From NCBI RefSeq assembly GCF_000184745.1, contig NC_014931.1, positions 5,270,001-5,334,000 on the forward strand: DNA of 64,000 bases, read 5' to 3'. Positions 994 through 21,217 of this stretch are shown here, in pieces. The stretch is from Variovorax paradoxus EPS. Its GTDB lineage: Bacteria > Pseudomonadota > Gammaproteobacteria > Burkholderiales > Burkholderiaceae_C. Position 1 is the first letter of the stretch, and each line of letters starts with the position of its first letter. Position numbers and translations under genes: made by a program. The notes under the pieces are model-generated. The model made no database searches, was not told the DNA's origin, and worked only from the letters and a program-made list of their open reading frames with translations.

Positions 994-2016
994 TCAGATT
1001 TCGAACTGCGGCTGCAGCTCGCGGATGCGCTTGATCGCCACGCCGGCCGCGGCGGTGCGCGTCTCCACACCCAGCTTCACGTACACCCGCTCCAGGTGCT
1101 TCTTGGCCGTGGCCGGGCTGCTGCCGAGGATCTCGCCGATGTCCTTGTTGGTCTTGCCCTTGACCACCCAGTACAGCACCTCGGCCTCGCGTGCGGTGAG
1201 CTTCAGGCTCAGGCTCATCGCCTCGATCACCCCGGTGTCGGACACCTCGCGCATGATGATCATCCACTCGTCGCCGTCGTCGTCCTGCCCGGTCTGCTGG
1301 TGCAGGCGCAGCGTGAGGCTGTTCGCGCCCTGCGCGATCGAAAGCGCCGGCGGCTCGATGCCGCGCTGGCGCGCATCGGGCGTGTGGCGCAGCAGCCATT
1401 CGAGCACCGCGGGCGGCGTCTCGGGGGCACGCGTCTCGCAGTAGCGGTGCAGCAGGTCGCGCGCGAGCGCCGTCTGCCAGATGAGGCGCCCCTCGGGCAG
1501 CCGCACGGTGATGCTCGCGTAGCCGAAGGCATCGAGCGCATTGCGCGCCTGGCCGGCCTGCCGCGCGTCCTGCCGCGCGCGGCGCGCGCCCTGCAGGTGC
1601 ACGTTCATGCGCGCGAGGACTTCCTTGGGCTTGATGGGCTTGGTGACGTAGTCGACGCCGCCGGCTTCGAGCGCGGCCACGAGGTGCTCGGTTTCGGTGA
1701 GGCCGGTCATGAACACGATGGGAATGTGCGCGGTCGCAGCATCGGCCTTGAGCCGGCGCGCCACCTCGAAGCCGTCGATGCCCGGCATCATCGCGTCGAG
1801 CAGCACGATGTCGGGCCGCGCCTGCGCGGCGCGCTGCAGCGCCTGCTCGCCGTTGGTGGCGATGAGCACGGTGTATCCCGATTCGTCCAGCGCGTCGTGC
1901 AGCACCGCGAGGTTGTCGGGCACGTCGTCCACGATGAGCACGAGGTCGGCGTTGACGCCCTCGTCGCGCAAGCTTCGTGCGAGGGGCGATGGTTCGGGAG
2001 GCGGGGTGGTTGTCAT
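994..2016 (-). CDS. LuxR/NarL-type response regulator
   Basis: A 340-residue regulator. Residues about 25-145 form a receiver domain with the phosphoacceptor in IVLLDAMMPGIDG (Asp74), the acidic pair VDD near 30-31 and the lysine in TKPIKP. A middle region of about 120 residues resembles no domain I can name. The C-terminus is a LuxR-type helix-turn-helix: LTAREAEVL, then KGKTNKDIGEILGSS and AKKHLERVYVKLGV. The ATG overlaps the TGA of the upstream hybrid kinase by four bases, so the two are translationally coupled and very likely form a pair. A role in urea or nitrogen control is inference from the urease genes on the far side of the kinase. Confidence 0.88.
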   Translation of the reverse strand: MTTTPPPEPSPLARSLRDEGVNADLVLIVDDVPDNLAVLHDALDESGYTVLIATNGEQALQRAAQARPDIVLLDAMMPGIDGFEVARRLKADAATAHIPIVFMTGLTETEHLVAALEAGGVDYVTKPIKPKEVLARMNVHLQGARRARQDARQAGQARNALDAFGYASITVRLPEGRLIWQTALARDLLHRYCETRAPETPPAVLEWLLRHTPDARQRGIEPPALSIAQGANSLTLRLHQQTGQDDDGDEWMIIMREVSDTGVIEAMSLSLKLTAREAEVLYWVVKGKTNKDIGEILGSSPATAKKHLERVYVKLGVETRTAAAGVAIKRIRELQPQFEI

Positions 2017-5000
2017 GGCGCACTCACTGCTTCGGCCAGCGCCCGGCTCATGGCCTCGAACTGGAACTGGCGCGCCAGCACGCGCTGCGCCTCGGTCCAT
2101 GCCATGCACTCGGGCTGTTCGGTGTCGATGTCGTCGAGCTGGTTCATGATGCCGCGGAAGTAGCCCAGGCTCACCGCTTCGTCGAGTGCGCGCAGGCGCT
2201 CGCGCGAGGGCGGTTGCATCGTCTTCGGCGCGGCCGGCGCGGGCAACGCGGCTGCGGTGTCGGTCCACTTGAGGCCGAGCCGGCGTTCGAGCCAGTCGAG
2301 CAGTTCGGTGTGGCGCACGGGTTTCACGAAGAAGTCTTCGGGCGCGATGCCCACGTCGTTGTCCAGGCCCTTGTCGAACGCATTGGCCGAGACGATGGCC
2401 ACGGCCTCGTCGGTCAGGCCGAGCTTGCGCGCGCGGCGGATCGTTTCCCAACCATCGATGCCGGGCATCGCGAGGTCGACGAACATCGCGTCGGGCCGGT
2501 AGCCGGCGGCGATGAGGTCCAGCGCATCGTGGCCGCTGGCCGCAGTGCGCAGCTCGAAACCCAGCGGCGCGAGCACGTGCTCGAGCAGGTCGCGGTCGGC
2601 CTCTTCGTTGTCGACCACCAGCAGACGTCGGCGCGCACCTTCATAGCCGCGGCGAGCGCGCGCCACAGGCACCGGCCGGCTCGCGCCCACCGCCGTGTCG
2701 TGCACGCGCGGCAAGAAGAGCCGCACGCAGAAAAGCGAGCCCACGCCCGGCGTGCTCTGCACTTTCATCTCGCCGCCCATCAGGTCGGTCAGCATCTTGG
2801 CGATGGTGAGGCCGAGGCCCGCACCCGGCGCCGACGAGGCCGCCGCGTTGCCGCGCGCGAAGGGCTCGAAGATGCGGTCGATGTCCTCGGTCGTCATGCC
2901 CGGCCCGGTGTCCTCGATCTCGATGGCCGCGAACTCACGTGCATACGCCAGGCGCAGCGTGACCTGCCCCGCCGCTGTGAACTTGATCGCGTTGCCCAGC
3001 AGGTTGATGAGGATCTGCCCCACCCGCTTCTCGTCGGCGCGCACCACCTCGGGCAAGGCGCCTCCGGCTTCGAAGCGGAACTGCAGCCCCTTCTCGGCGG
3101 CCTGCAGCTCGAACATGTCGGCCAGCTCCCGCATGGTGTCGGCAAAGCGCATCGGCCGCGCATGCAGCGTGAGCTTGCCGGCCTCGATGTGCGCGATCGC
3201 CAGCGTGCCTTCGATGAGCGACAACAGATGCTCACCGCCGCGCTTGATGACCGCCACCGCCTGCTGGCGATGCGGCGGCACCGAGTGGTCTTCGCCCATC
3301 AGCTGCGCATAGCCGAGGATGCTGTTGAGCGGCGTGCGCAGCTCGTGGCTGATGGCGCTGATGTAGCGGCTCTTGGCCTGGTTGGCCTGGTCGGCGGCGC
3401 GCTGGGCCTGCTCGGCGACGGCCCTCGCCTCTTCGGCCGTTTGCTTGGCAGCCTGCAGGGCGCGGTCGGTTTCGCGGTGCAGCTCGATCTCGCGCAGCAG
3501 CAGGTGGGTCTGGCGGTTCGACTCTTCCTGCGCGACCTTGCGGCTCTGGTGCGCGAGCACCAGCCACCACGCCACGATGCCAGCGATGACCAGGAGCGCC
3601 ATGTACGCCTTGAGAAACCCCGAGCGCAACGCCGACTGCTGCACGCCTGCCCAAACCTCGGACACGCCGGCCTGCGACGCGAGCTCGACCGCACTCTCGG
3701 CCAGCGCCCGCAGCTCCTGCTGATAGAGCACGCCGAACACCACCGCCAGCAGCGGCACGATGATCAGCATCAGCAGCAGGAAGTGCCCCAGGCCGGTGTC
3801 CAAGTAGCGCCAGCTGCGCCGTGGCAGCAGCCAGCGCAATGCGGCCGACCACTGCGACGACAGGCTCGCATGCGGCTTGCACAGGTCGCCGCAGCGCGCA
3901 TCGAGCGTGCAGCACAGCGAGCAGATCGCGCCCTGGTAGGCCGGGCAATGCGCCATGTCCGGCCCTTCGTACTCGCGCTCGCAGATCACGCAGTGCTGCA
4001 CCTTTAGGCGCTGGTAGTTGCCGCTTTCGTCCGATTCGACCTTCGCCCAGCGCACCGCGCGGCCACCCGCTGCCGGGGTGAACGGCACGGCGCCCGTCGC
4101 ATCGGAGGCCCGCGCCAGGTAGTACTTGCCGCCGGTCGCCCACGCCAGCAGCGGCGAGGCGATGAGCGCGGTGCCCAGCGCGATCAGCGCCGAGAACGCT
4201 TGCGCCAGCGGCCCGAACACGCCCAGGTGCGCGGTGATCGACAGCACCGAAGCCAGCGCCATCGCGCCCACGCCCACCGGGTTGATGTCCCACAGGTGCG
4301 CGCGCTTGAACTCGATGCCCGGCGGCGAGAGCCCCAGCGGCTTGTTGATGACCAGGTCGGCCACCACCGACATCATCCAGGCGATGGCGATGTTGGCGAA
4401 GAGGCCGAGCACATCGCCCAGCGCCTCGAACACGTTCATCTCCATCAGCATGAAGGCGATGAGCGCGTTGAACACCACCCACACCACCCGCCCCGGATGG
4501 CTGTGCGCCACGCGTGAGAAGAAATTGCTCCAGGCCAGCGACCCCGCATAGGCGTTGGTCACGTTGATCTTGAGCTGCGAGATCACCACGAACAGCGCCG
4601 TCGCGGCCACTGCCCAGCCGTAGTTCGGAAACACGTACTCGTAGGCCGCGAGGTACATCTGGTTCGGATCGACCGCGCGCTCCACCGGCACCATGTGCGT
4701 GATGGCCAGGTAGGCCAGCAGCGCCCCGCCCAGCATCTTGAACACGCCCAGCACCACCCAGCCCGGGCCGCCGGCCAGCACGCCCGCCCACCAGAGCCGC
4801 CCGGTGGTGGCGGTGCGCGCGGGCATGAAACGCAGGTAGTCGGCCTGCTCACCCATCTGGGTGATGAGCGCGATGCCGACCGTCAGGGCCGCGCCAAACA
4901 GGTGCAGATCGAAGCCCTTGGTGCCGGTCTTGACCCCGTTGTAGTGCACGATGCCAGCGAACGCACCAGGATCGCGCACGAGCACGAACACAAAAGGCAC

Positions 5001-5618
5001 CACCAGCATCAGCAGCCAGAGCGGCTGCGTCCAAAGCTGCAGCCGGCTGATGGCCGAAACGCCATGCGTGACCAGTGGAATGACCACCAGCGCGCACACC
5101 AGATACCCCCAGACCGGCGGAATGCCCAGCGCCAGCTCCAGCGCATAGGCCATCACGGCCGCTTCGAGCGCGAAAAAAATGAAGGTGAAGCTCGCGTAGA
5201 TCAGCGAGGTGAGCGTCGAGCCGATGTAGCCGAAACCGGCGCCGCGGGTGAGCAGGTCCATGTCGACGCCGTAGCGCGCCGCGTACACGCTGATCGGCAG
5301 CCCCGCCAGGAAAATGATGAGCCCGGTGACCAGGATCGCCCAGAAGGCATTGGCAAAGCCGTACTTCACCAGCAGCGTGGCGCCCACCGCCTCGAGGATC
5401 AGGAACGACGCCGCCCCGAAAGCCGTGTTGGCCACCCGCCATTCGGACCACTTGCGAAAGCGCTGCGGCGTGTAGCGCAGCGCATAGTCTTCGAGCGTTT
5501 CGCTCGCGACCCAGCTGTTGTAGTCGCGCCGGACCTTGACGATGCGCTGGGGGGCGTCATCGGGGGTGGTTGGCGTATCGGCAGCGTTCACACCGTTTCG
5601 GTGCATCTTTCGTGCCAT
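2013..5618 (-). CDS. NCS1 permease - hybrid histidine kinase - receiver fusion
   Basis: A 1201-residue protein read from ATG 5618; ATG 5606 is equally possible, and longer versions would run into ureA. Residues about 55-525 match the NCS1 cytosine/purine permease fold, with a dozen hydrophobic segments and motifs such as WRVANTAFGAASF. Residues about 541-579 hold a cysteine cluster. Two further membrane segments follow (about 609-686), then a coiled coil, HisKA with SHELRTPLNS (His758), HATPase with NLLGNAIKF and GAGLGLTI, and a receiver domain with FVDLAMPGIDG (Asp1048). The C-terminal 80 residues contain no histidine, so they are not an HPt domain. The layout recalls CbrA, where an SLC5 transporter is fused to a kinase. 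It probably senses or carries a nitrogenous solute; its neighbour urease suggests urea or a purine product. Confidence 0.88.
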   Translation of the reverse strand: MARKMHRNGVNAADTPTTPDDAPQRIVKVRRDYNSWVASETLEDYALRYTPQRFRKWSEWRVANTAFGAASFLILEAVGATLLVKYGFANAFWAILVTGLIIFLAGLPISVYAARYGVDMDLLTRGAGFGYIGSTLTSLIYASFTFIFFALEAAVMAYALELALGIPPVWGYLVCALVVIPLVTHGVSAISRLQLWTQPLWLLMLVVPFVFVLVRDPGAFAGIVHYNGVKTGTKGFDLHLFGAALTVGIALITQMGEQADYLRFMPARTATTGRLWWAGVLAGGPGWVVLGVFKMLGGALLAYLAITHMVPVERAVDPNQMYLAAYEYVFPNYGWAVAATALFVVISQLKINVTNAYAGSLAWSNFFSRVAHSHPGRVVWVVFNALIAFMLMEMNVFEALGDVLGLFANIAIAWMMSVVADLVINKPLGLSPPGIEFKRAHLWDINPVGVGAMALASVLSITAHLGVFGPLAQAFSALIALGTALIASPLLAWATGGKYYLARASDATGAVPFTPAAGGRAVRWAKVESDESGNYQRLKVQHCVICEREYEGPDMAHCPAYQGAICSLCCTLDARCGDLCKPHASLSSQWSAALRWLLPRRSWRYLDTGLGHFLLLMLIIVPLLAVVFGVLYQQELRALAESAVELASQAGVSEVWAGVQQSALRSGFLKAYMALLVIAGIVAWWLVLAHQSRKVAQEESNRQTHLLLREIELHRETDRALQAAKQTAEEARAVAEQAQRAADQANQAKSRYISAISHELRTPLNSILGYAQLMGEDHSVPPHRQQAVAVIKRGGEHLLSLIEGTLAIAHIEAGKLTLHARPMRFADTMRELADMFELQAAEKGLQFRFEAGGALPEVVRADEKRVGQILINLLGNAIKFTAAGQVTLRLAYAREFAAIEIEDTGPGMTTEDIDRIFEPFARGNAAASSAPGAGLGLTIAKMLTDLMGGEMKVQSTPGVGSLFCVRLFLPRVHDTAVGASRPVPVARARRGYEGARRRLLVVDNEEADRDLLEHVLAPLGFELRTAASGHDALDLIAAGYRPDAMFVDLAMPGIDGWETIRRARKLGLTDEAVAIVSANAFDKGLDNDVGIAPEDFFVKPVRHTELLDWLERRLGLKWTDTAAALPAPAAPKTMQPPSRERLRALDEAVSLGYFRGIMNQLDDIDTEQPECMAWTEAQRVLARQFQFEAMSRALAEAVSAP

Positions 5619-5650
5619 CCGTACGACGTTTGGCGAACAGGGCACGACTG

Positions 5651-5677
5651 TTGCAAAGAAGAAGGCTTGCCCATAAT
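5651..5677 (+). promoter_or_regulatory. Candidate ureA promoter
   Basis: TTGCAA (5651-5656) and CATAAT (5672-5677) lie 15 bp apart in the 94-bp gap between the divergent kinase and ureA starts. The match to a sigma-70 promoter is moderate and the spacing is short, so this is only a candidate. No clear Shine-Dalgarno sequence precedes the ureA ATG. The same gap must also hold the kinase promoter. Confidence 0.3.
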
Positions 5678-5712: not shown

Positions 5713-6015
5713 ATGGAACTGACCCCGCGCGAAAAAGACAAGCTGCTGATCTTCACCGCGGCGCTGCTCGCCGAACGCCGCAAGGCCCGCGGCCTGAAGC
5801 TCAACTACCCTGAAGCCATCGCGCTGATTTCCGCCGCCGTGATGGAAGGCGCCCGCGACGGCAAGAGCGTCGCCGAACTCATGAGCGACGGGCGCTCGGT
5901 GCTGACCCGCGCCGACGTCATGGACGGCATCGCCGAGATGATCCCGGACATCCAGGTCGAAGCCACCTTTCCGGACGGGACCAAGCTGGTCACCGTCCAC
6001 CAGCCCATCGTCTGA
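5713..6015 (+). CDS. ureA: Urease subunit gamma
   Basis: A 100-residue protein, the usual length for UreA. It starts [14 protein letters not shown] and carries the family signatures [12 protein letters not shown] and LVTVHQPI. Urease is a cytoplasmic nickel enzyme that splits urea into ammonia and carbamate; UreA forms the trimer core with UreB and UreC. It is the first gene of the rightward urease run and is followed after 23 bp by the HupE/UreJ membrane protein. No ureD lies upstream, where many beta-proteobacterial clusters place it; the position is occupied by the divergent kinase gene. Confidence 0.97.
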
Positions 6016-6038: not shown

Positions 6039-6638
6039 ATGCGCCAAACCACTTCCAAGACCCTCGCCCTGCTCGCCCTCCTCTTGCCGCTCGCGGCCAG
6101 CGCCCACACAGGCGTCGATGGCGGCCTGCATCACGGCTTCACCACCGGCTTCCTGCACCCGCTGACCGGCGCCGATCACCTGGCCGCCATGGTCGCGGTC
6201 GGTTTCTGGAGCGCACTGGCCGCGCGCCGCGCCTGGCCCGACCTGCTGTGGGCGCCGCTGGCGTTCGCCGGCATGCTGCTGGTGGGCGCGCTGATGGGCC
6301 TCGCCGGCGTTCAACTGCCAGCCGTCGAACCGATGATCGCGGCCTCGCTGCTGGTGCTGGGCCTGCTGGTGGTCACGCGCACTCACCTGCCGGCGGCTGT
6401 TGCGATGGCGGTGGTCGGCGTGTTCGCCGTCTTCCACGGCGTGGCCCACGGTTACGAGCTCGCAAGCGAGCAAGGCGCCGCACTCACGCTGGCCGGCATG
6501 GTCAGCGCGACCGTGCTGCTGCACCTCGCCGGCATCGCGTTCGGCTGGGCCTTGCGCCACGCCAACGCCTGGTTGCCCCGCGTAGCGGGCGCCGCCGTGG
6601 TGGTGCTGGGTGCAACGCTTTTGGCGCAAGCCGTCTGA
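6039..6638 (+). CDS. ureJ: HupE/UreJ-type membrane protein, likely nickel uptake
   Basis: A 199-residue membrane protein with a cleavable-looking signal (ending ASA-HTG) and about six hydrophobic helices. The signature [21 protein letters not shown], split here as [11 protein letters not shown] and GADHLAAM, is that of the HupE/UreJ family, whose histidines are thought to bind Ni2+ during transport across the membrane. A second conserved stretch, AVFHGVAHG, is present. It sits between ureA and ureB, as in other Burkholderiales clusters, and its stop is 5 bp before the ureB ATG. Nickel transport is family knowledge, not shown by the sequence. Confidence 0.92.
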
Positions 6639-6643
6639 TCGCA

Positions 6644-6949
6644 ATGACCCCCGGCGAACTCCTCACCGACAACGGCGACCACACGCTCAACCCCGGCCGC
6701 CGCACCCTCACCCTGGTGGTGCAGAACACCGCCGACCGGCCGATCCAGGTCGGCTCGCACTATCACTTCGCCGAGACCAACGGCGCCCTCGGTTTCGACC
6801 GCGAAGCCGCGCGCGGCATGCGCCTGAACATCGCCTCGGGCGCCGCGGTGCGCTTCGAGCCGGGGCAGCAGCGCACGGTCGAACTCGTCGATTACTCGGG
6901 CGATCGCATCGTCTACGGCTTTCGCGGCCTGGTTCAAGGAAAGCTCTAA
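6644..6949 (+). CDS. ureB: Urease subunit beta
   Basis: A 101-residue protein starting MTPGELL and containing the family motifs [17 protein letters not shown] and [11 protein letters not shown], with the end FRGLVQGKL. Length and sequence are standard for a stand-alone bacterial UreB. The start at 6644 is chosen because it fits the family N-terminus and leaves a 5-bp gap after ureJ. A Shine-Dalgarno-like AAGGA for the next gene lies inside its last codons. UreB packs on the outside of the UreC active-site subunit and stabilises the trimer. Confidence 0.96.
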
Positions 6950-6952
6950 AAC

Positions 6953-8671
6953 ATGGCCACCATCGGGCGACGCGCCTATGCAGAAATCTTCGGCCCCACC
7001 GTGGGCGACCGGGTCCGCCTTGCAGACACCGAGCTGCTGATCGAAGTCGAGGCCGACTACACGCTGCGTGCCGGCGGCTACGGCGAAGAAGTGAAGTTCG
7101 GCGGCGGCAAGACGATTCGCGACGGCATGGCGCAATCGCAGCGCACCCGCGCGCAAGGCGCCGTCGACACCGTGCTCACCAACGCGCTCATCCTCGACCA
7201 CTGGGGCATCGTGAAAGCCGACATCGGGCTCAAGGACGGCCGCATCGCCGCCATCGGCAAGGCCGGCAACCCCGACGTGCAACCGGGCGTGGACATCGTC
7301 ATCGGCCCGGGCACCGAAATCATCAGTTGCGAAGGCAACATCGTCACCGCGGGCGGCATCGACAGCCACATCCACTTCATCTGCCCGCAGCAGATCGAAG
7401 AGGCGCTGTCTTCCGGCGTGACGACGATGCTCGGTGGCGGCACCGGCCCCGCCACCGGCACCTTCGCGACCACCGCCACGCCCGGCCCCTGGCACATCGA
7501 GCGCATGCTGCAGGCGGCCGATGCGTTCCCGATGAACCTGGGCTTCCTCGGCAAGGGCAATGCGAGCCTGCCGGATGCGCTGCACGAGCAGATCGAGGCC
7601 GGCGTCATCGGCCTGAAGCTGCACGAGGACTGGGGCACCACGCCCGCGGCCATCAGCAATTGCCTCGATGTGGCCGACGCCACCGACACGCAGGTGGCGA
7701 TCCACAGCGACACGCTCAACGAATCGGGCTTTGTCGAGAACACCATCGCCGCCGTGGGTGGCCGCGCGATCTGCGCGTTCCACACCGAAGGCGCGGGTGG
7801 CGGCCATGCACCGGACATCCTGCGCGTGGTGGGCGAGGCGAACTTCCTGCCGTCGTCCACCAACCCCACGATGCCCTACACCGTGAACACGCTCGACGAG
7901 CACGTCGACATGCTCATGGTGTGCCACCACCTCGATGCAGGAATCGCCGAAGACCTGGCCTTCGCCGAGTCGCGCATCCGCAAGGAAACCATCGCCGCCG
8001 AAGACGTGCTGCACGACCTCGGCGCAATCAGCATGTTCAGCTCCGACAGCCAGGCCATGGGCCGCGTCGGCGAGGTGATCATCCGCACCTGGCAGACCGC
8101 GCACAAGATGAAGGTGCAGCGCGGCACGCTCCCCGAAGACAGCGAACGCAACGACAACTTCCGCGCGAAGCGCTACGTCGCCAAGTACACGATCAACCCG
8201 GCGATCGCGCACGGCATCGCGCACGAGGTGGGCTCGCTGGAAGTCGGCAAGTGGGCCGACATCGTGATCTGGAAGCCCGCCTTCTTCGGCGTGAAGCCCT
8301 TCACCATCCTGAAGGGCGGCACGATTGCGATGGCCGCGATGGGCGACCCGAGCGCGTCGATCCCGACGCCGCAGCCGGTGCACTTTCGCCCGATGTTCGG
8401 CGCGTACGGCGGCTCGCTCGCGAAGAGCTCGCTCACCTTCGTCTCGCAGGCCGGGCTCGCCTCGGGCATCAAGGAGCGCTACGGTTTAGCCAAGCACCTC
8501 TGCGCGGTGAAGAACATCCGCAACGTGCGCAAAGGCGACCTGATCCACAACGGCTATACGCCGAAGATGGAAATCGATGCGCAGACCTACGCGGTGCGCG
8601 CCGACGGGCATCTGCTGACCTGCGAGCCGGCGAAGCTGCTGCCGATGGCGCAGCGGTATTTCCTGTTCTAG
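6953..8671 (+). CDS. ureC: Urease subunit alpha, catalytic
   Basis: A 572-residue amidohydrolase with a full set of urease active-site motifs: GGIDSHIHF (nickel-binding histidines), GLKLHEDWG (the lysine that is carbamylated to bridge the two nickel ions), [10 protein letters not shown], and the mobile-flap region [10 protein letters not shown]. The end [12 protein letters not shown] is typical. It follows ureB by 3 bp and is clearly co-transcribed. The accessory genes ureE, ureF and ureG continue after an interruption of about 690 bp that holds a toxin-antitoxin pair on the other strand, so transcription must pass through that insert or restart after it. Confidence 0.98.
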
Positions 8672-8683
8672 ATGCTGCGGGCC

Positions 8684-9076
8684 TCAGGGCGAGCGAGGTG
8701 CCATGTGGCCTCGGATCCAATTGGCGAAGCTGCTCTCGTTCATGGCGCTGGCGGCGACGTCGAGCATCACCAGCGTAGCCTCGGCCTGCGTCGCCACCAG
8801 TCGCTGGCCGTTCAGGGCAAGGAACAGACCAACGGACAGGAATGCCGCGCGCTTGTTGCCGTCGATGAACGGATGGTTCTTGGCCAGTCCCACGCCGTAA
8901 GCGGCCGCGAGGTCTGCCGCGTCGGGCGACTCGTAGCTCACGAGGTTGAGCGGACGCGCAAGCGCGGACAGCAGCATCGTTTCGTCGCGCAGGCCGGAAG
9001 CTCCACCATGCTCGGCGAGGCTTTCGTCATGCAACAGGATCAAGGTGCGCCTGTCGATCCAGCGCCAAGTGCTCAT
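8684..9076 (-). CDS. doc: Doc-type toxin (Fic fold)
   Basis: A 130-residue protein with the Doc/Fic core HPFIDGNKRAAF, matching HxFx(D/A)GNKR at about residues 68-79. Doc toxins of the Phd-Doc type phosphorylate elongation factor Tu, whereas most Fic proteins AMPylate their targets; the short Doc-like form and the Lys in GNK favour Doc. The N-terminal LILLHDESLAEHGGASGLRD is also the standard Doc start. Its ATG overlaps the end of the antitoxin gene by four bases. Its stop lies 12 bp from the ureC stop, tail to tail. The partner is an AbrB-type protein rather than Phd, a combination known for other Doc loci. Confidence 0.9.
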   Translation of the reverse strand: MSTWRWIDRRTLILLHDESLAEHGGASGLRDETMLLSALARPLNLVSYESPDAADLAAAYGVGLAKNHPFIDGNKRAAFLSVGLFLALNGQRLVATQAEATLVMLDVAASAMNESSFANWIRGHMAPRSP

Positions 9077-9361: not shown

Positions 9362-9979
9362 ATGCTCACCGCCAACAAACTCATGCCACAGGGCCGGGGC
9401 CTCGCGCCCGTGCTGCTCAAGCGCGCCGCCACCATCGAACTCGAATGGGACGTCCGCCAGAAAAGCCGCTTCGACGCCACCGACTCGCAGGGCCGGCAGA
9501 TCGGCATCTTCCTCGCGCGCGGCACCGCGGTGCGTGGCGGCGATGTGCTGGTGGCCGAAGACGGTTCGCTGATCCGCGTCATCGCAGCACCGCAGCCCGT
9601 GCTGCGCATCACGCACTGCACGGCCCACGGCACGCCCTTCGACCTGACGCGCGCGGCCTATCACCTGGGCAATCGGCACGTGCCGATCGAGCTCAAGCCC
9701 GACCACCTGAAGATCGAACCCGACCACGTGCTGGCCGACATGCTGCGCTCGATGCACCTGATCGTCGTCGCCGTGGAGGAAGCCTTCGAGCCCGAGGGCG
9801 GCGCCTATGGCTCGCACGAGCATTCGCATGGCGGCGGTCATGACCATGCCCACGATCACGGCCATTCGCACGGCGCCAGCAAAGGCCCGAAGCCACTCGT
9901 GCTCGCGCCGGAATTGCTCGACGACCATGCCGACCATCCGCACGGTCACGACCACAGCCACCACGGCCACTCCCACTGA
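9362..9979 (+). CDS. ureE: Urease accessory protein UreE, nickel chaperone
   Basis: A 205-residue UreE. The N-terminal peptide-binding half contains [19 protein letters not shown] and the C-terminal half the metal site region [16 protein letters not shown] and [10 protein letters not shown] long tail after about residue 150 is extremely histidine-rich ([19 protein letters not shown], then [18 protein letters not shown]), the classic nickel reservoir of many UreE proteins; here it comes in two blocks separated by a non-histidine linker. UreE hands nickel to the UreDFG-urease complex. It resumes the urease run 64 bp after the antitoxin start, so it may have its own promoter in that gap. Confidence 0.96.
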
Positions 9980-9980
9980 C

Positions 9981-10661
9981 ATGCCCGAACCGGCCAGCGC
10001 CCACAGCCTCCTGCAACTCATCTGGCTGGCCTCCCCCGCCCTGCCCGTGGGCGGTTTCTCGTACTCCGAGGGCGTCGAGGCAGCGGTCGAATGGGCCGGC
10101 ATCGACTCCGAAGCCAAGGCCGCCGAATGGCTCGCCGACCAGCTGCACCTGAGCTTCGCGCGCGGCGACCTCGCGCTGGTCGCGCAGGCCATCCCCGCTT
10201 GGCGGGCGAACGACACACCGCGCATCCGTCAGCTCAACGAATGGGTCATGACCACCCGCGAATCCGCCGAGTTCTTCCTGCAGACCGAGCAGATGGGCCG
10301 CTCCTTCGTCGAGTGGCTCAAGCTGCATCACGCGGACACGGCCGAGGTCTTCAAGGACCTGCCCGCGAGCTACCCCGTGGCCTTCGCCTTCGCGCTCGGC
10401 CGCAGCGGCGCCACGGTGCACGACGGCTGCCTCGCCTTCGCCTTCGGCTGGGCCGAGAACATGGTGGCCGCCGCCGTAAAAGCCGTGCCGCTCGGCCAGA
10501 GCGCGGGCCAGCGCATCCTCGCGCGGCTGGCAAACGAAATCCCCGCGGCCGTCGACCGTGCGATGCAACTGGGCGACGACGAACGCCAAGCTTTTGCGCC
10601 CCTCCTGGCCGTGCTCTCGGCCCGCCATGAAACACAATATTCCCGCCTCTTTCGAAGCTGA
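9981..10661 (+). CDS. ureF: Urease accessory protein UreF
   Basis: A 226-residue protein with the UreF hallmarks [22 protein letters not shown] and the later [11 protein letters not shown] and QSAGQRIL stretches. UreF bridges UreD and UreG and controls fidelity of nickel insertion. The ATG at 9981 lies one base after the ureE stop, which supports this start over in-frame upstream codons inside ureE. The length is normal for the family. Because UreF acts only together with UreD, the missing ureD must be elsewhere in the genome. Confidence 0.96.
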
Positions 10662-10679: not shown

Positions 10680-11330
10680 ATGACCTCCGCCCTGCACCAC
10701 ATCCCCCACCGCACCAAGAGACTGCCCCCGCTGCGCGTGGGCATCGGCGGCCCCGTCGGCTCGGGCAAGACCACGCTGCTCGAAATGCTCTGCAAGGCGA
10801 TGCGCGACAAGTACGACCTCGTGGCCATCACCAACGACATCTACACCAAGGAAGACCAGCGCCTCCTCACAGTGGCCGGCGCGCTGCCCGCCGAACGCAT
10901 CATGGGCGTGGAAACCGGCGGCTGCCCGCACACCGCGATCCGCGAAGACGCATCGATCAACCTCGAAGCCATCGACCGCATGCTCGAGGACTTTCCGGAT
11001 GCCGACGTGGTGTTCGTCGAATCCGGCGGCGACAACCTCGCGGCCACCTTCAGCCCGGAGCTCTCGGACCTCACCATCTACGTGATCGACGTGGCGGCCG
11101 GCGAAAAGATTCCGCGCAAGGGCGGCCCCGGCATCACCAAGAGCGACCTCTTCGTGATCAACAAGATCGACCTTGCACCCTACGTCGGCGCGAGCCTGGA
11201 AGTGATGGAGCAGGACACGCAGCGCATGCGCCGCCAGCGGCCCTACGTGATGACGAACCTCAAGACCCACACCGGCGTGGCCGAGGTGGTGGCCTTCATC
11301 GAGCAGCGCGGCATGCTCACCGAAGGCTGA
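10680..11330 (+). CDS. ureG: Urease accessory GTPase UreG
   Basis: A 216-residue SIMIBI-class GTPase with the P-loop [13 protein letters not shown], the metal-site region [17 protein letters not shown] (the CPH motif that binds nickel), FVESGGDNL, and the guanine-specificity motif [10 protein letters not shown]. UreG uses GTP to deliver nickel into urease. It is the last gene of the run, 18 bp after ureF, and a convergent gene follows. The sequence is standard for the family with no defects seen. Confidence 0.97.
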
Positions 11331-15077: not shown

Positions 15078-17480
15078 ATGCATCTCCCCAAGTCCCTCGC
15101 GGCCATCGCTGCACTGCTCGTTTCGATGGCCGCCGTCCCCGCATGGGCCGTCGACCCTTTCACCGTTCGCGACATCCGGCTCGAAGGCCTGCAGCGCGTC
15201 GAACCCAGCACTGTTTTCACCACCCTCGGCATCAAGGCCGGCGACAACTACAGCGACGAGCGCGGCAGCGCCGCCATTCGCGCGCTGTTCGAGCTGGGCC
15301 TGTTCAAGGACGTGCGCATCGACGTCGACGGCAACGTGCTTGTGGTCATCGTGGAAGAGCGCCCCACCGTCGCCGATGTCGATTTCGTCGGCACCAAGGA
15401 ATTCGAGAAATCCGCGCTCCAGAAGGCCTTGCGCGAGATCGGACTCGCCGAAGGCCAGCCCTACGACAAGGCGCTCGCCGACCGCGCCGAGCAGGAGCTG
15501 AAACGCCAGTACGTGAGCCGCAGCCTCTACAACGCAGAGGTCGTGACCACCGTCACGCCGCTGGAGCGCAACCGCGTCAACCTCACGTTCACCGTCGTCG
15601 AAGGCGAGTCAGCACGCATCAAGAGCGTGCGCGTCGTCGGCAACAAGGCTTTCAGCGAAAGCACGCTGCTCGACCTGTTCGACCAGGACAGCGGCGGCTG
15701 GCTCGCCTGGTACACCAAGTCGAACCAGTACTCGCGCAGCAAGCTCGCCGCCGACCAGGAAACGCTGCGCTCCTACTACCTCACGCGCGGCTACCTGGAG
15801 TTCCGCATCGACTCCACGCAGGTCGCCATCTCACCGGACCGGCAGTCGCTGGACCTCACGCTCAACATCACCGAGGGCGAGAAGTTCGCAGTCGCCGGCG
15901 TGCGGCTCGAAGGCAACTACTTCGGCCGCGAAGACGAGTTCAAGACCCTCGTGACAGTGCGCCCCGGCGCGCCCTACAACGGCGAGGACGTGGCCGCCAC
16001 CACCAAGGCCTTCACCGACTACTTCGGCACCTTCGGCTACGCGTTTGCGCGCGTGAAGGCCGAGCCCGAGATCGACCGGGCCAACAACCGCGTGACGTTG
16101 GTGCTGAAGGCCGAGCCCGCGCGCCGCGTGTACGTGCGGCGACTGAACATCGGCGGCAACGCGCGCACGCGCGACGAGGTGATCCGTCGCGAGTTCCGGC
16201 AGTTCGAAGGCGCCTGGTACGACGGCAACAAGATCAAGCTCTCGCGCGACCGCGTCGACCGGCTCGGCTACTTCACCGAAGTGAACGTGGAGACCACCGA
16301 AGTACCCGGCAGCAACGACCAGATCGACCTCACGGTCAACGTGGCCGAGAAACCCACCGGCTCGCTGCAGCTGGGCGCGGGCTATTCGTCGACCGACAAG
16401 GTCTCGCTCACCTTCGGCATCACGCAGGAGAACGTGTTCGGTTCGGGCAACTACCTCGGGCTGCAGGTCAACACCAGTTCGTACAACCGCACGATCTCGC
16501 TCACCGCGACCGATCCGTACTTCACGAAGGACGGCATCTCGCGCACGCTCAACGTCTTTCACACCACCACGCGGCCCTACTACGAGGCCGACGGCAACTA
16601 CAAGCTCGCGAGCGATGGCGGCTCCGTGCGCTTCGGGCTGCCGGTGGGCGAGCTGGACACGGTGTTCCTGGGCATCGGCGTGGAGCGCTATTCGTTCACG
16701 CCCGGCACCAACGGTTCGTACACGCTGGTCGATGGCTCCTACGTCTACACCGGCACGCCGCAGGCTTATCTCGACTACTTCAAGTGCACCGGCACCGCGC
16801 CGAGCGTGGTGTGCACCGGCAGCAACGTGGTGGGCATTCCCGCGACGGTGGGCTGGTCGCGCGACGACCGCGACAGCGCGCTTGTGCCGACCACCGGGCG
16901 CCTGCAGCGCGCGAACCTCGAAGTGGGCGTGGGCAGCGCGCTGCGCTACCTGAAGACCGACTACCAATACCAGCAGTACTTCGCGCTTTCCAAGCAGTAC
17001 ACGCTGGCCGTCAACGGCCAGCTCGGCTATGCAAAGGCGCTGGGCGGCAGCACCTTCCCGATCTTCAAGAACTTCTACGCGGGCGGGCTCGGCTCGATCC
17101 GCGGCTTCGAGCAGAACTCGCTCGGGCCGGTCGATGCGGTCACGGGCGGTTCGCTCGGCGGTACGCGCAAGGCGATCTTCAACATGGAGTTCAGCACGCC
17201 CTTCCCCGGGGCGGGCAACGACCGGTCGCTCAGGCTCTACACCTTCATCGATGCGGGCAACGTGTTCGCCGACCGCACGGCCAGCATGACCGATGCGCAG
17301 TGGAAAGCGCAGAACCGCATCCGCGCCTCGGCGGGCCTGGGCATCAGCTGGATCTCGCCGCTGGGGCCGCTGCGGCTCGCGTATGCGGTGCCGCTGGCGT
17401 ACCAGAAAGCGGACACCGCCAACGGCATCGCGGCGGACCGCACGCAGCGCTTCCAGTTCCAGATCGGCACCTCCTTCTGA
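15078..17480 (+). CDS. bamA: BamA/Omp85-type outer-membrane assembly protein
   Basis: An 800-residue protein with a signal peptide ending AWA-VDPFTVRDIRLEGLQRV. About five POTRA domains (residues 25-420) precede a 16-strand barrel, whose lid loop carries GLGSIRGFEQNSLGP, equivalent to the VRGF motif; the last residue is Phe. BamA folds and inserts barrel proteins into the outer membrane. The length equals that of housekeeping BamA. The usual neighbours (rseP, skp/ompH, lpxD) are absent, so this is probably a second copy; whether another bamA exists lies outside the window. The barrel contains a cysteine pair (FKCTGTAPSVVCTG) in an outer loop. An OmpR-type regulator follows by 19 bp. Confidence 0.88.
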   Translation: MHLPKSLAAIAALLVSMAAVPAWAVDPFTVRDIRLEGLQRVEPSTVFTTLGIKAGDNYSDERGSAAIRALFELGLFKDVRIDVDGNVLVVIVEERPTVADVDFVGTKEFEKSALQKALREIGLAEGQPYDKALADRAEQELKRQYVSRSLYNAEVVTTVTPLERNRVNLTFTVVEGESARIKSVRVVGNKAFSESTLLDLFDQDSGGWLAWYTKSNQYSRSKLAADQETLRSYYLTRGYLEFRIDSTQVAISPDRQSLDLTLNITEGEKFAVAGVRLEGNYFGREDEFKTLVTVRPGAPYNGEDVAATTKAFTDYFGTFGYAFARVKAEPEIDRANNRVTLVLKAEPARRVYVRRLNIGGNARTRDEVIRREFRQFEGAWYDGNKIKLSRDRVDRLGYFTEVNVETTEVPGSNDQIDLTVNVAEKPTGSLQLGAGYSSTDKVSLTFGITQENVFGSGNYLGLQVNTSSYNRTISLTATDPYFTKDGISRTLNVFHTTTRPYYEADGNYKLASDGGSVRFGLPVGELDTVFLGIGVERYSFTPGTNGSYTLVDGSYVYTGTPQAYLDYFKCTGTAPSVVCTGSNVVGIPATVGWSRDDRDSALVPTTGRLQRANLEVGVGSALRYLKTDYQYQQYFALSKQYTLAVNGQLGYAKALGGSTFPIFKNFYAGGLGSIRGFEQNSLGPVDAVTGGSLGGTRKAIFNMEFSTPFPGAGNDRSLRLYTFIDAGNVFADRTASMTDAQWKAQNRIRASAGLGISWISPLGPLRLAYAVPLAYQKADTANGIAADRTQRFQFQIGTSF

Positions 17481-17499
17481 AGAAAGAAAGGACAACGCC

Positions 17500-18183
17500 A
17501 TGAGCCGCATCCTGATGGTCGAAGACGGGCGCGACAGCGCCTTTGCGCTGCTGGACCACCTCTGCAACGCGGGCCACGAGGTCGAGCACATCGGCGACGG
17601 CGCGGCGGCGCTCGACCGCATCCTGAGTTCGCCGCCTGCGCTGACCTTGCTCGACGTGGTGCTGCCTCGAATCGACGGCCTCGAGGTGCTGCAGCAGGTG
17701 CGCTCGCACAGCGACCATCCGATCATCATGCTGACGGCGCGCACGCGCGAGGTCGATCGCCTGCGCGGGCTCGACCTGGGCGCCGACGACTATGTCTGCA
17801 AGCCGTTTTCGCCGCGCGAAGTGGTGGCGCGCGTGCACACGGTGCTGCGCCGGCATGCGCAACGCGATGGCGCTTGCGGGGCGCCGTCGAAGTCGGTGTC
17901 GTTCCGGGACGCGCACGGCGGCGCGCACCTGGAGGGGCACGCGCTCGATCTCACGCGCCGCGAACTCCTGCTGCTGCGCACGCTGTCGCGGGATCCAGGG
18001 CGGGTGTTCACGCGCTCGAAGCTGCTGGAGGCGGCGTTTCCGGAAGCGTTCGATGTGAACGAGCGCGCGGTCGACGGGCACATCAAGAACCTGCGCAAGA
18101 AGCTCACCGCCGTGGCCCCCTCGCACGGCTGGATCCGCTCGATCTACGGCGTGGGCTTCAGCTTCGCGGACCGGCCGGCCTGA
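17500..18183 (+). CDS. OmpR-type response regulator without adjacent kinase
   Basis: A 227-residue regulator. The receiver domain has MVED, Asp52 in LLDVVLPRIDG and the lysine of VCKPFSP; the winged-helix domain contains LTRRELLLLRTLSRDPGRVFTRSKLL and ends HGWIRSIYGVGFSF. It is close in sequence to the BaeR-type regulator 2.3 kb downstream. It lies 19 bp after the BamA-type gene on the same strand and is likely co-transcribed with it, which points to an envelope-related role. No kinase gene is next to it; BaeS downstream could serve both. This is inference. Confidence 0.9.
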   Translation: MSRILMVEDGRDSAFALLDHLCNAGHEVEHIGDGAAALDRILSSPPALTLLDVVLPRIDGLEVLQQVRSHSDHPIIMLTARTREVDRLRGLDLGADDYVCKPFSPREVVARVHTVLRRHAQRDGACGAPSKSVSFRDAHGGAHLEGHALDLTRRELLLLRTLSRDPGRVFTRSKLLEAAFPEAFDVNERAVDGHIKNLRKKLTAVAPSHGWIRSIYGVGFSFADRPA

Positions 18184-18428
18184 GCACGGCACACGGCATC
18201 GCGCGGTGTGGCGGGGCCGGTGCGCATGATCGGCGCGAGGGTCGAGAGACTCGCGCTGCGCCCCTCGGCCGGATGGCGCTCGCTGCATCCCCCACGCGCG
18301 GCGATGCAGGCGCCCAGCGCCAGGCCGCCGAAGGCCAGCAGGCCCATGAAGCGCTGCATCAGCGGCAACCCGCCAGTTGATGGTGTCGCCACGGGATGCA
18401 CCCAGGCGGTTTCGCTGTGAGACGGCAT
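18144..18428 (-). CDS. Possible small membrane protein
   Basis: An open frame of 94 codons from ATG 18428. It contains one hydrophobic segment (MGLLAFGGLALGACIAARGGC) that could be a membrane helix or a lipoprotein signal if translation begins at the internal ATG 18359. It overlaps the 3' end of the response regulator by 40 bp on the opposite strand and has no good ribosome-binding site, so it may not be real. It follows another small membrane-protein gene on the same strand. Confidence 0.3.
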   Translation of the reverse strand: MPSHSETAWVHPVATPSTGGLPLMQRFMGLLAFGGLALGACIAARGGCSERHPAEGRSASLSTLAPIMRTGPATPRDAVCRAQAGRSAKLKPTP

Positions 18429-18472
18429 CGCGGTGTGCAACGCTCAGTCTTCGGTGGATTGCGCGAAGCCAC

Positions 18473-18748
18473 TCATGCGCTTTCCTTCTCGGCTTCGGCG
18501 CCCGGCTCCACCGCGCGCGTGGCGCGCGCCTCCGCCCAGACGACCAGCAGCGTCCACACATGGGTGACCACCCAGAAGATCGCCGTGAGCCACAACAGGA
18601 CCAAGCCCATGCCGTCCTCGGACCAGGCATCGGCCCACGACCAGGCGGGGCGCGTCGGCGCGCAGTGCGCCGGGCTGGCCCAGGCCAGCACGGCGGCCGC
18701 GAAGGCGGGGAGGAACTTTTTCGGTGAGCTAAAGGTGGCCGGGTTCAT
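18473..18748 (-). CDS. Small membrane protein of unknown function
   Basis: A 91-residue product with a likely signal or first helix (FLPAFAAAVLAWASPAHC) and a second membrane helix rich in tryptophan (GLVLLWLTAIFWVVTHVWTLLVVW), ending in a charged tail. The family is not recognised. It is divergent from baeS, and the 175-bp gap between them contains two BaeR-box-like sites in inverted order, so it may belong to the same envelope-stress regulon. Confidence 0.55.
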   Translation of the reverse strand: MNPATFSSPKKFLPAFAAAVLAWASPAHCAPTRPAWSWADAWSEDGMGLVLLWLTAIFWVVTHVWTLLVVWAEARATRAVEPGAEAEKESA

Positions 18749-18773
18749 GGGCCCGCATCGTGCGTTTCGAATC

Positions 18774-18842
18774 GGGAGAAATGTGGGAGGGCCACACCAC
18801 CGGATTCCATCCGGATTCCTCCCAGATTTCTCCCCATTTGGC
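18774..18842. promoter_or_regulatory. Inverted pair of BaeR-box-like sites
   Basis: Two 17-bp arms (18774-18790 and 18818-18834) are reverse complements with one mismatch. Between them lies a second dyad, CCGGAT-TCC-ATCCGG (18800-18814). The right arm runs into TTTCTCCCCATTTGGC (18827-18842), which resembles the E. coli BaeR box TTTTTCTCCATNATTGGC. The pair sits between the divergent small membrane protein and baeSR, so autoregulation is likely. Confidence 0.55.
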
Positions 18843-18923
18843 CGCCATGATCCGCCGCTTGCCTATGACGCCCGCCTGCCCGAAACGCATGTCGCAGAAT
18901 GCGGCCATGCCTGCCCAGAGCCC

Positions 18924-20516
18924 ATGCCGCGTCTGACACTCTCCCGCAAGATCTTCCTGGCGCTGGCCGCCTTGCTGGTCGTGTTGCTGCTCAGCTTCGT
19001 GGGCTTTTCCATCATCGCGCTGCAGCGGGGCCTGGGCGCCTACGTCGCCGAGATCGAGATCCGGCGCATGGACTGGCTCTCGCAACTTCTCTTGAAGCAC
19101 TACGCTGCCAACGGCGACTGGAAGAAGCTGCGCGACAACGACGAGGCCTGGCATCGCCTCCGCATGGGCCAACTGGCGGGTGTGCTCGATGGCGCGGCCA
19201 GCCCCGACGACCGGCGGCTTCCGCCCTGGTACGAGCGCCGCGCGCCAGGCACGGGCCGGGTCGAAGGCGATGCCGACAACGGCGCACCGCCGCCGGCTCC
19301 GGCTTCCTCGTCGCCCACCGGCTCGCCGCAACTCGATCTTCTGCCACGGCGCTTCTCGATGCCGCCGCCGCCCTGGTTCTTTCCCGACCCGCGCGGTGCG
19401 GCCGATTCGATCTACCAGCGCCTGGCCGTGCTCGATGCGCAAGGCGCATTGGTGGTCGGCGCCTCCATCGATCTGGAGAATGCCGCGCGCATGCCGATCC
19501 GCCGCGGGCGCTCGGTCGTCGGCTATCTCGCGCTTGCGCCGATGGAAGGCCTCGAGAGCGAGGCCGACCGCGCCTTCATCGCGCGCCAGTCGGGCGTGAT
19601 CGCGCTCACCGGCCTGTGCGGACTCGCCTTCGCGCTCGTGCTGTCGTGGCTGCTCGCGCGCCGCTGGTTCAAGCCCATCGACGCGCTGACGCAGGCCGCG
19701 CAGGACGTGGCGCGCGGGCGGCTCTCCACGCGCGTGGCCGTGCATGGTTCCGACGAACTCGCGCTGCTGGGCAAGACCTTCAACGACATGGCGCAGCGCC
19801 TGGACAAGGTCGAGGCCTCGCGGCGCGCGTGGCTCGCCGACGCGGCGCACGAGCTGCGCACACCGCTCGCTGCGATGCGCGCGGAAATCGAAGCGCTGCA
19901 GGACGGCGTGCGCACCTTCGACGAACGCACCGCCCTGCGCATGCACCGGCAGGTGATCCGCCTCGGCCAGCTGGTCGACGACCTGCGCAGCAGCATGCGC
20001 GAGCCGCAGAACGATCTGCTCACCACCGCCGTGTTTCCGCTCACGCTGCTGAAGGAGGCGCTGGACCACACGCGCGACCGCTTCGCGCAGCGCGGCATCG
20101 CGGTCGACCGGGAAGCGATCGACCGCATCGCCGCATCGGCCCAGCCGGTGATCGACGGCGACGCGCACCGGCTGCACCAGGTCTTCATGAACCTGCTGGA
20201 GAACACGCTGGCCTACACCGACGCGGGCGGCCGGCTGCGCATCGACGTGACCATCGAAGGCGCGTGGACCGGCAACTGCCTCACGCTGCTGTTCGATGAC
20301 AGCGCGCCGGGCGTGTCCGAAGAAGAAATCCCGCGGCTCTTCGACCGCCTGTTCCGCGGCGAAACCTCGCGCAGCCGCGCGCTCGGCGGCTCGGGCCTCG
20401 GCCTCTCGATCTGCCGCGCGACCATCGAGGCGCACGGCGGCAGCATCGAGGCCGCCCCATCGCCGCTCGGCGGACTGCGCATGACCCTCACCCTTCCACT
20501 GGCGGCATCCGCATGA
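18924..20516 (+). CDS. baeS: Sensor histidine kinase BaeS
   Basis: A 530-residue kinase. Two membrane helices (about 10-32 and 228-250) enclose a periplasmic region that contains a proline-rich stretch (PPPAPASSSP, later MPPPPWFFPDP) not usual for BaeS. HAMP follows, then HisKA with AAHELRTPLAAM (His309), the N-box NLLENTLAYTD, and DDSAPGVSEEE plus GGSGLGLSI, which match BaeS closely. BaeS senses envelope damage and some antimicrobials and phosphorylates BaeR. The ATG at 18924 is chosen because it gives MPRLTLSRKIFLALAAL, a normal kinase start. The stop overlaps the baeR ATG by four bases. Confidence 0.9.
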   Translation: MPRLTLSRKIFLALAALLVVLLLSFVGFSIIALQRGLGAYVAEIEIRRMDWLSQLLLKHYAANGDWKKLRDNDEAWHRLRMGQLAGVLDGAASPDDRRLPPWYERRAPGTGRVEGDADNGAPPPAPASSSPTGSPQLDLLPRRFSMPPPPWFFPDPRGAADSIYQRLAVLDAQGALVVGASIDLENAARMPIRRGRSVVGYLALAPMEGLESEADRAFIARQSGVIALTGLCGLAFALVLSWLLARRWFKPIDALTQAAQDVARGRLSTRVAVHGSDELALLGKTFNDMAQRLDKVEASRRAWLADAAHELRTPLAAMRAEIEALQDGVRTFDERTALRMHRQVIRLGQLVDDLRSSMREPQNDLLTTAVFPLTLLKEALDHTRDRFAQRGIAVDREAIDRIAASAQPVIDGDAHRLHQVFMNLLENTLAYTDAGGRLRIDVTIEGAWTGNCLTLLFDDSAPGVSEEEIPRLFDRLFRGETSRSRALGGSGLGLSICRATIEAHGGSIEAAPSPLGGLRMTLTLPLAASA

Positions 20517-21217
20517 CACGCATCGTCGTCGTGGAGGACGAGATCGACATCGCCTCGGTGGTGCAGGACTACCTGCGCCACAGCGGCTACGAGACCGCGC
20601 ACTTCGCCGACGGGCAGAGCGCGCTCGAAAGCATCGTCGCCGCGCCGCCCGACCTGACGCTGCTGGACATCATGCTGCCGCGGCTGGACGGCATCGAGGT
20701 GCTGCGCCGCGCGCGCGAGCACACGGCGCATCCGATCATCATGCTCACCGCGCGCATCGAGGAGGTCGACCGCCTGCTCGGCCTGGAGCTCGGCGCGGAC
20801 GACTATGTGTGCAAGCCCTTCTCGCCGCGCGAACTGGTGGCGCGCGTGCGTGCCGTGCTGCGGCGCACGGCACCAGGGAATGTGCCGGGGGTGCCCGGGC
20901 AAGCCCCGCAGAGCGAAGGCCCGGGCCTCGTGCTCGACGACGTGCACTGGCGTGCATCGCTCGAAGGCACGCCGCTGAACCTCACGCGCCGCGAGTTCGG
21001 ACTGCTGCAGGTGCTGTCGCGGCACCCGGGGCGCATCTTCTCGCGTGCGCGGCTGCTGGAGCTTGCCTACGACGACACGGTGGACGTGACAGAGCGTGCC
21101 ATCGACAGCCATGTGAAGAACCTGCGCCGTAAGCTCGGTGCGGTGTCGCCTGCGCACGACTGGATTCGCTCGGTGTATGGCGTGGGGTTTGCTTGGGAAG
21201 CGCCGCCACAGCCCTGA
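20513..21217 (+). CDS. baeR: Response regulator BaeR
   Basis: A 234-residue OmpR-family regulator: acidic pocket VVEDE, phosphoacceptor Asp52 in LLDIMLPRLDG, lysine in VCKPFSP, and winged helix ending HDWIRSVYGVGFAWE. The ATGA overlap with baeS shows coupling. In E. coli BaeR activates drug-efflux genes including an RND pump. An RND adaptor/pump pair lies about 4.4 kb downstream on the same strand, but I see no BaeR-like box directly upstream of it, so a link is only suggestive. Confidence 0.92.
   Translation: MTRIVVVEDEIDIASVVQDYLRHSGYETAHFADGQSALESIVAAPPDLTLLDIMLPRLDGIEVLRRAREHTAHPIIMLTARIEEVDRLLGLELGADDYVCKPFSPRELVARVRAVLRRTAPGNVPGVPGQAPQSEGPGLVLDDVHWRASLEGTPLNLTRREFGLLQVLSRHPGRIFSRARLLELAYDDTVDVTERAIDSHVKNLRRKLGAVSPAHDWIRSVYGVGFAWEAPPQP

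Follow-up and report, generated by a model that had tools for sequence, protein, structure and literature searches.

An NCS1-fold permease fused to a hybrid histidine kinase beside the urease genes of Variovorax paradoxus EPS is a candidate urea sensor

Organization of the locus

The window is a stretch of 64,000 nucleotides from Variovorax paradoxus EPS (NC_014931.1, positions 5,270,001 to 5,334,000, forward strand), and its features are listed in Table 1. One reading frame encodes a permease, an eight-cysteine module, a transmembrane hairpin, and the catalytic and receiver domains of a kinase. All elements of a hybrid histidine kinase are present, namely a HisKA domain with SHELRTP, a HATPase_c domain, a receiver, and a partner regulator, whose helix-turn-helix (HTH) has the recognition segment SPATAKKHLE. 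Domain and fold analysis thus bears out the layout given in the preliminary description: permease, cysteine cluster, HisKA, HATPase, and receiver in one frame, a LuxR-type regulator coupled through an ATGA overlap, and a kinase gene divergent from ureA. An amide-type paralogue, stand-alone permeases, and sigma-54-like elements go beyond that description. As the ATG at 5618 overlaps a conserved sigma-54-like element, automatic start calls for the family are possibly too long here, and the true start of the fusion kinase is probably further downstream, perhaps at GTG 5591-5589.

Table 1. Features of the locus in window coordinates.
Feature	Position	Strand	Remarks
Response regulator gene	994..2016	-	receiver 26-137, middle region, LuxR/GerE HTH 273-326
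ATGA overlap	2013..2016	-	kinase stop/regulator start
Permease-kinase-receiver fusion	2013..5618	-	1,201 aa if read from ATG 5618
Receiver of fusion kinase	2295..2621	-	residues 1000-1108, DLAMPG at 1048-1053; Pfam
HATPase_c	2712..3035	-	residues 862-969; Pfam
HisKA	3177..3377	-	residues 748-814, phospho-acceptor H758 within SHELRTP; Pfam
Transmembrane hairpin, short loop, then long helix	3543..3791	-	about residues 610-692
Eight-cysteine module	3879..3992	-	C543-C580
NCS1-fold permease domain	4110..5495	-	about residues 42-503
Sigma-54-like element toward kinase gene	5602..5617	-	TGGCACGAAAGATGCA
Degenerate operator-like palindrome	5622..5637	.	two mismatches to TACGYNNNNNNRCGTA; weak
Sigma-54-like element toward ureA	5640..5655	+	GGGCACGACTGTTGCA
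ureA	5713..6015	+	divergent from kinase gene
HupE/UreJ-family gene	6039..6638	+	
ureB	6644..6949	+	read from frame; tblastn matches at equivalent place in related loci
ureC	6953..8671	+	
ureE	9362..9979	+	
ureF	9981..10661	+	start taken from frame
ureG	10680..11330	+	CobW/HypB/UreG domain

A Fic/DOC-family gene lies between ureC and ureE (8684-9076), on the strand opposite to both, and tblastn finds relatives at the equivalent place in five other urease clusters (L061, L065, L068, L085, and L195). The sole UreD match of the genome, at 5011952-5012557, is separated from the urease genes by about 260 kb. Downstream of the cluster, the window has more kinase and receiver matches at 17449-20848 (genome 5287449-5290848).

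Fold and family of the permease domain

Structure comparison gives the entire permease domain the NCS1 version of the LeuT fold. NCS1, not SLC5, is the best structural match, and the nearest solved structures are those of CodB (cytosine) and Mhp1 (hydantoin), with an identity of 14-17%. A sequence search of the permease against the PDB returned nothing useful. In the Pfam profile search, the NCS1 profile PF02133 did not match the fusion protein itself; it matched one of 21 relatives and none of the three stand-alone proteins P0123, P0224, and P0241. The stand-alone relative L056 matches it with 31.8 bits (cut-off 23.5) over profile positions 3-408 of 440. Because the direct match fails and a match is reached only via a homologue, we place the domain in a separate clade with the NCS1 fold and do not count it as a canonical member. 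The protein had been taken for an NCS1 purine/cytosine-type permease, and its public annotation is purine-cytosine permease-like. Direct profile comparison did not assign the protein to NCS1, and the family was settled only by structure plus the relative L056. Amt is absent among the Pfam matches up to E 0.01. STAC is not among the Pfam matches either, where Pfam may hold no STAC model, and the NCBIfam comparison covered 25 of 129 matches. Similarity is higher in the permease than in the kinase part for 77 of 78 close loci, and the permease contributes 92 invariant columns to a 21-row alignment.

Cysteine module and stand-alone permeases

The 73 fused sequences compared have the eight cysteines without exception; this count is used here since alignment A5 was selected by the cysteine pattern, which makes invariance there uninformative. 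Stand-alone permeases of about 540-560 residues consist of the permease and the cysteine signature, and then end. Six of them sampled from the match list (P0123, P0136, P0174, P0183, P0224, and P0241) have eight cysteines each, and the urease-cluster stand-alones L056 and L292 keep four, the first C-x2-C and C-S-L-C. As stand-alone permeases carry the cysteine tail, in reduced form in the urease-linked copies, we regard it as part of the permease unit and not of the kinase. The tail probably binds zinc. Modeled alone, the module reached a poor pLDDT of 68.5 and pTM of 0.46, and Foldseek with this model gave a RING/PHD/FYVE-like list with no match below E 0.39.

In L056, the stand-alone permease gene comes after ureG in a ureD-ABC-EFG cluster; in L292, an Acinetobacter lwoffii permafrost plasmid, it directly precedes ureE, ureF, ureG, a HupE/UreJ gene, ureD, and ureABC; in L044, it adjoins a fused kinase and precedes fmdA. 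Since stand-alone members occur in urease and formamidase operons, the clade appears to be a permease turned into a sensor. Two proteins of about 895 residues (L154 of genome G446 and L164 of G548) combine the same permease, cysteines, and hairpin with a different kinase part, and each has a formamidase gene nearby.

Gene neighborhoods of homologues

In a phylum sample of 398 Pseudomonadota genomes, 53 have a family match. The 60 listed matches comprise 56 frames of 1,026-1,365 residues, two of about 895 residues, a distant 552-residue protein, and a 94-residue fragment (G586). Fifty-six of the 60 were fetched for the flank survey, a set outside which fall the matches of G000 and G107 and the G586 fragment, and the neighborhood count rests on the 55 fetched homologues with the family domain. 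Fifty-three of these 55 lie beside urea or amide genes: the formamidase gene fmdA is near 36, of which 34 also have a Urt-like ABC transporter; ure genes or UrtA are near 16; and a Urt-like ABC transporter alone is near one. The two without such genes lie on short contig fragments, 4.8 and 11.4 kb long. A class sample of 369 genomes has 18 with a match, and its 18 loci include nine with urea or amide genes, two with the ABC transporter alone, and seven with none; a nineteenth locus (L057) has the kinase part only, near ureEFG. The neighbor survey had been set beforehand as the refuting test of a nitrogen link, and it found the homologues mostly near nitrogen genes (53/55; class sample 11/18).

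The named loci are the best 80 of 575, every one a close relative. Urea genes flank 65 of them, with a divergent ureA within 1.5 kb in 55. The fetched flanks of the other 15 have no urea gene, and three of these extend fewer than 110 bases on the ureA side. As a control, 22 further kinase regions from the V. paradoxus genome were scored at equal thresholds, and none lies beside urea or amide genes; these are 20 regions for ranks 3-26 of the kinase match list plus two initially omitted, one of which overlaps the paralogue locus. A kinase at 19.7-20.5 kb of the window, some 8 kb away from ureG, falls outside the control. The flank search covered the ure, urt, and fmdA families and a few clusters. 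UrtA-E, FmdA, FmdB, and UreD were verified on representatives by NCBIfam or Pfam, and the other assignments are tblastn matches to these; in L043, L049, L052, and L055, genes were counted from tblastn matches only. Plasmid records with relatives of the permease number 520, of which Klebsiella contributes 340, and 303 of the 520 are predicted to be conjugative. One such plasmid, p69-1 of Klebsiella pneumoniae (L290), carries urtABCDE, formamidase, and an exact copy of the operator described below.

Urea-type and amide-type systems

The V. paradoxus genome has a second copy of the fusion protein, 52% identical, whose gene is divergent from a Urt-like ABC operon with fmdA and fmdB (L039). The binding protein of this ABC transporter passes the UrtA model TIGR03407 with 516.9 bits (cut-off 492.75), so the model does not separate the two types. 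The name amide type, used here for these loci, refers to the formamidase gene and to the nitrogen use of Pseudomonas veronii Yu15, a strain with an amiE-fmdA-fmdB-urtABCDE cluster that is reported to use formamide and acetamide as its only nitrogen sources (PMC13209695). In a quick permease tree, six changes between urea and amide are required to explain the labels of 76 rows, stand-alones included; the labels are grouped, and there is more than one clade of the urea type.

Residues 317, 416, and 288 divide urea from amide types. Most amide types have Glu317 and Gly416, and most urea types have Asp and other residues, respectively; with only four to five independent pairs, significance is unreachable for these positions. 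The stand-alone L056, which lies in a urease operon, is an exception with Glu at 317, and Glu/Asp at 317 is a possible marker of type. Overall, the data support urea as the signal of the window copy and short amides as that of the paralogue, both as presumed ligands.

A palindrome upstream of urea and amide importers

The gaps between kinase and ABC genes share the palindrome TACGYNNNNNNRCGTA, which is exact in 32 of 40 and within one mismatch in 37 of 40, with 0.0 and 1.2, respectively, in shuffles (mononucleotide throughout); the motif was discovered in 39 gaps largely identical to the 40 scored. A separate set upstream of urtA has it exact in 28 of 42 loci and with one mismatch in seven more (35/42), compared with 0.0 exact and 1.4 within one mismatch in shuffles. 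Motif search in the urea-locus gaps gave sigma-54-like elements first, and the operator emerged from the amide loci.

The V. paradoxus genome has four exact palindromes. One is between the paralogue and its ABC operon. Another, at genome positions 5071257-5071272, precedes the called start of a urtA gene by 91 bases; this gene, at 5.07 Mb, heads a row with urtB, C, D, and E and is about 200 kb from the kinase. Two sites thereby precede the two genes above the TIGR03407 cut-off; the remaining two have no urea link by ORF calls. Where urtA and kinase are unlinked, the presence of the operator tracks the type of kinase in 40 urtA genes. Of 20 such genes picked from a longer list for genomes that lack the kinase, none has a site within one mismatch; of 16 from genomes whose only family member is of the amide type, none has an exact site and one has a one-mismatch site; and all four from genomes with a urea-type kinase have an exact site.

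A further set of 17 genomes with an unlinked kinase comprises 11 of 15 named loci and six class-sample genomes. UrtA was found in 12 of these. Within 500 bases of urtA, six of the 12 have an exact site and another has a site with one mismatch; five have none. In G137 and G240, the kinase is present and UrtA was not found at the cut used. In G128 and G197, an exact site is about 1.4 kb upstream of urtA (L280 position 4005 and L287 position 4030), as seen post hoc. A porin-like gene sits between operator and urtA in L053 and L054, and may do so likewise in L280 and L287. One Klebsiella and one Sinorhizobium plasmid each have an exact site upstream of urtA, between urtA and the kinase. Genome-wide, the strict pattern matches in 46 of 398 genomes, many of which have no kinase, and many kinase genomes have no match; the pattern alone is a poor detector.

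The recognition segment of the regulator covaries with the site in the 49 loci where both are readable. TVNKH is paired mostly with TACGT. Regulators with TVKKH or with THKH- or TTKH-type segments have TACGC in most cases, and for those with TVDKH a G or A comes after TACGC. Base 5 of the operator is T in at least one half-site for 22 of 24 regulators with N and for 4 of 25 others (p 7e-8), and over 31 distinct regulator-site pairs for 13 of 15 and 3 of 16 (p 2.4e-4); both p values take loci or pairs as independent, uncorrected for relatedness. Exceptions include L196, L197, and L217.

In the window, a degenerate palindrome stands between the two sigma-54-like elements, and the kinase-ureA gaps of the Variovorax-group loci L058 and L211 likewise have a palindrome two mismatches away. 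Across kinase-ureA gaps, 12 of 62 have a site within one mismatch, compared with 0.8 in shuffles or about 1.3 with extended gaps. The control of urease proposed in the preliminary description is therefore only hinted at. As the palindrome is strong before urtA and degenerate before ureA, urtABCDE is the better-supported direct target.

Sigma-54-like promoters

When the 62 kinase-ureA gaps are lengthened by 75 bases on the kinase side, elements of the -24/-12 type occur toward ureA in 56 and toward the kinase in 51 (1.9 and 1.1 in shuffles); without the extension, the counts are 50 and 35 (shuffles 1.2 and 1.4). Of 46 kinase-ABC gaps, 24 have an element directed at the kinase and three have one directed at the ABC operon (shuffles 1.85 and 1.55), and the amide ABC operon has the operator in place of the sigma-54-like element. 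Judged from these counts, the kinase genes of both types and urease look sigma-54-dependent, and the amide ABC operon does not. The distribution of promoters and operators suggests a two-step control, in which nitrogen limitation would lead to the sensor and the sensor to the matching importer. NtrC-like sites within one mismatch are only mildly enriched, with 3/57 urea gaps (0.1 in shuffles) and 5/40 amide gaps (0.0 in shuffles) having one. LuxR-type regulators are unable to open sigma-54 promoters on their own, which makes an action at ureA uncertain; direct control of urease by the regulator is a possibility.

Proposed mechanism and alternatives

From the architecture, the fold, the neighborhoods, the operator with its covariation, and the sigma-54-like elements, all of which are read from sequence, we propose with a probability of roughly 0.72 that the locus encodes a transceptor-type two-component system for urea that regulates urtABCDE through the palindrome. 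The NCS1-fold permease, with its own cysteine-rich tail, is fused to the transmembrane hairpin, kinase, and receiver, and urea binding to, or passing through, the permease would set the kinase. Phosphate would then pass to the LuxR-type regulator from the overlapping gene, which would bind TACGCC-N4-GGCGTA and switch on urtABCDE, the distant urea ABC importer, with the promoter of urease as a possible secondary target. Divergent sigma-54-type promoters for kinase and urease, presumably with NtrC as activator, would probably confine production of the system to nitrogen limitation. The paralogue would do likewise for its Urt-like ABC transporter and formamidase, with a TACGT half-site.

A reading that we consider unlikely, though not negligibly so, accepts the proposed regulon and puts the sensor in the hairpin loop, the cysteines (through metal or redox), or the kinase domain, so that the permease transports or anchors. 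Such a division has been reported for CbrA, in which uptake proceeds without the kinase and perception of the signal without the SLC5 domain (PMC9100948), and the invariance of the eight cysteines in the fused proteins, set against the four that urease-operon stand-alones keep, points the same way. However, conservation is higher in the permease than in the kinase part, the permease is what the stand-alones in urease and formamidase operons have in common, and the six sampled stand-alones with all eight cysteines indicate that these are not kinase-specific. The nearest folds and the public annotation would instead suit a nucleobase or allantoin permease and a system sensing purine breakdown upstream of urea, but this is quite improbable, as the recurrent neighbors are ure, urt, and fmdA genes (the families, with a few clusters, for which the flanks were searched), the clade is so distant from nucleobase permeases that PF02133 misses it, and the formamidase neighbors have no purine link. 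Urea, allantoin, or a pyrimidine had been suggested as the sensed compound; the ure and urt neighbors favor urea, and the recurrent neighbors lend no support to the other two. Slightly less probable still is that another regulator of urea or amide uptake binds the palindrome and the kinase-regulator pair controls urease only. The frequent linkage of the kinase to ureA in close relatives and the distance of 200 kb to the best operator of the genome are in line with this, but the operator tracks the kinase type at unlinked urtA genes, its bases covary with the recognition helix, and the amide-locus site lies in the kinase-ABC gap.

Relation to known systems and implications

The closest kinds of known proteins are the SLC5-STAC kinases and an Amt-kinase fusion, and we therefore place the preferred reading, a urea transceptor, beside the known transporter-kinases. 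CbrA, CrbS, and RpuS are SLC5-STAC histidine kinases with a transporter fused to a kinase, and such kinases are reported to control uptake or use of the sensed compound, as proposed here (PMC9100948, PMC13022988). The same sources give CrbS and RpuS a fused receiver and a LuxR-family regulator next door (CrbS/R and RpuS/R), which is also the arrangement in the window. The SLC5-STAC kinases respond to acetate, pyruvate, or histidine in these accounts, whereas urea and amides would be the ligands here. Unlike them, the window protein has NCS1 as the best fold match, no PAS in the Pfam scan, and a cysteine module with a transmembrane hairpin. Ks-Amt5, an ammonium transporter fused to a histidine kinase, is likewise reported to use a nitrogen-compound transporter as kinase input (PMC5764959), but has the Amt fold, for which the window protein has no profile match. 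From CodB and Mhp1, the window protein differs by its fused kinase, its cysteine tail, and its urea or amide gene neighborhood.

The P. veronii Yu15 cluster resembles the amide loci in combining a Urt-like ABC transporter with formamidase; the term "histidine kinase" is absent from the main text of that paper (PMC13209695), whereas such clusters carry a fused kinase and the operator here. GrtK of Burkholderia glumae was rejected as a relative, as it is described as PilS-like, with no transporter (PMC12918730). A hybrid kinase of Pseudomonas pseudoalcaligenes, BN5_0597, which a published gene list places in the vicinity of ABC and allophanate hydrolase genes (PMC6368324), was a further possible relative that was set aside. 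Among the listed matches in the open-licence literature, judged by title and start of abstract, there was neither an NCS1-type kinase nor a urea-sensing transporter-kinase.

UreR is an AraC-type, urea-responsive regulator of some enteric ureases, a soluble one-component protein with no membrane sensor. The window system is like it in urea-dependent control and differs by its membrane sensor. To our knowledge, bacterial sensing of external urea is known mainly for soluble regulators such as UreR.

The wider proposal, for which we see even odds, is a class of transporter-kinases defined by an NCS1-fold clade, a zinc-type cysteine tail (possibly of the cross-brace type), urea or amide substrates, a sigma-54-expressed phosphorelay, one palindrome through which urtABCDE or amide ABC operons are controlled, and several switches between amide and urea types. 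The family predicts substrates for a permease clade that lacks assigned ones and supplies an exact operator, and its natural specificity switches are material for studying the change from transporter to receptor.
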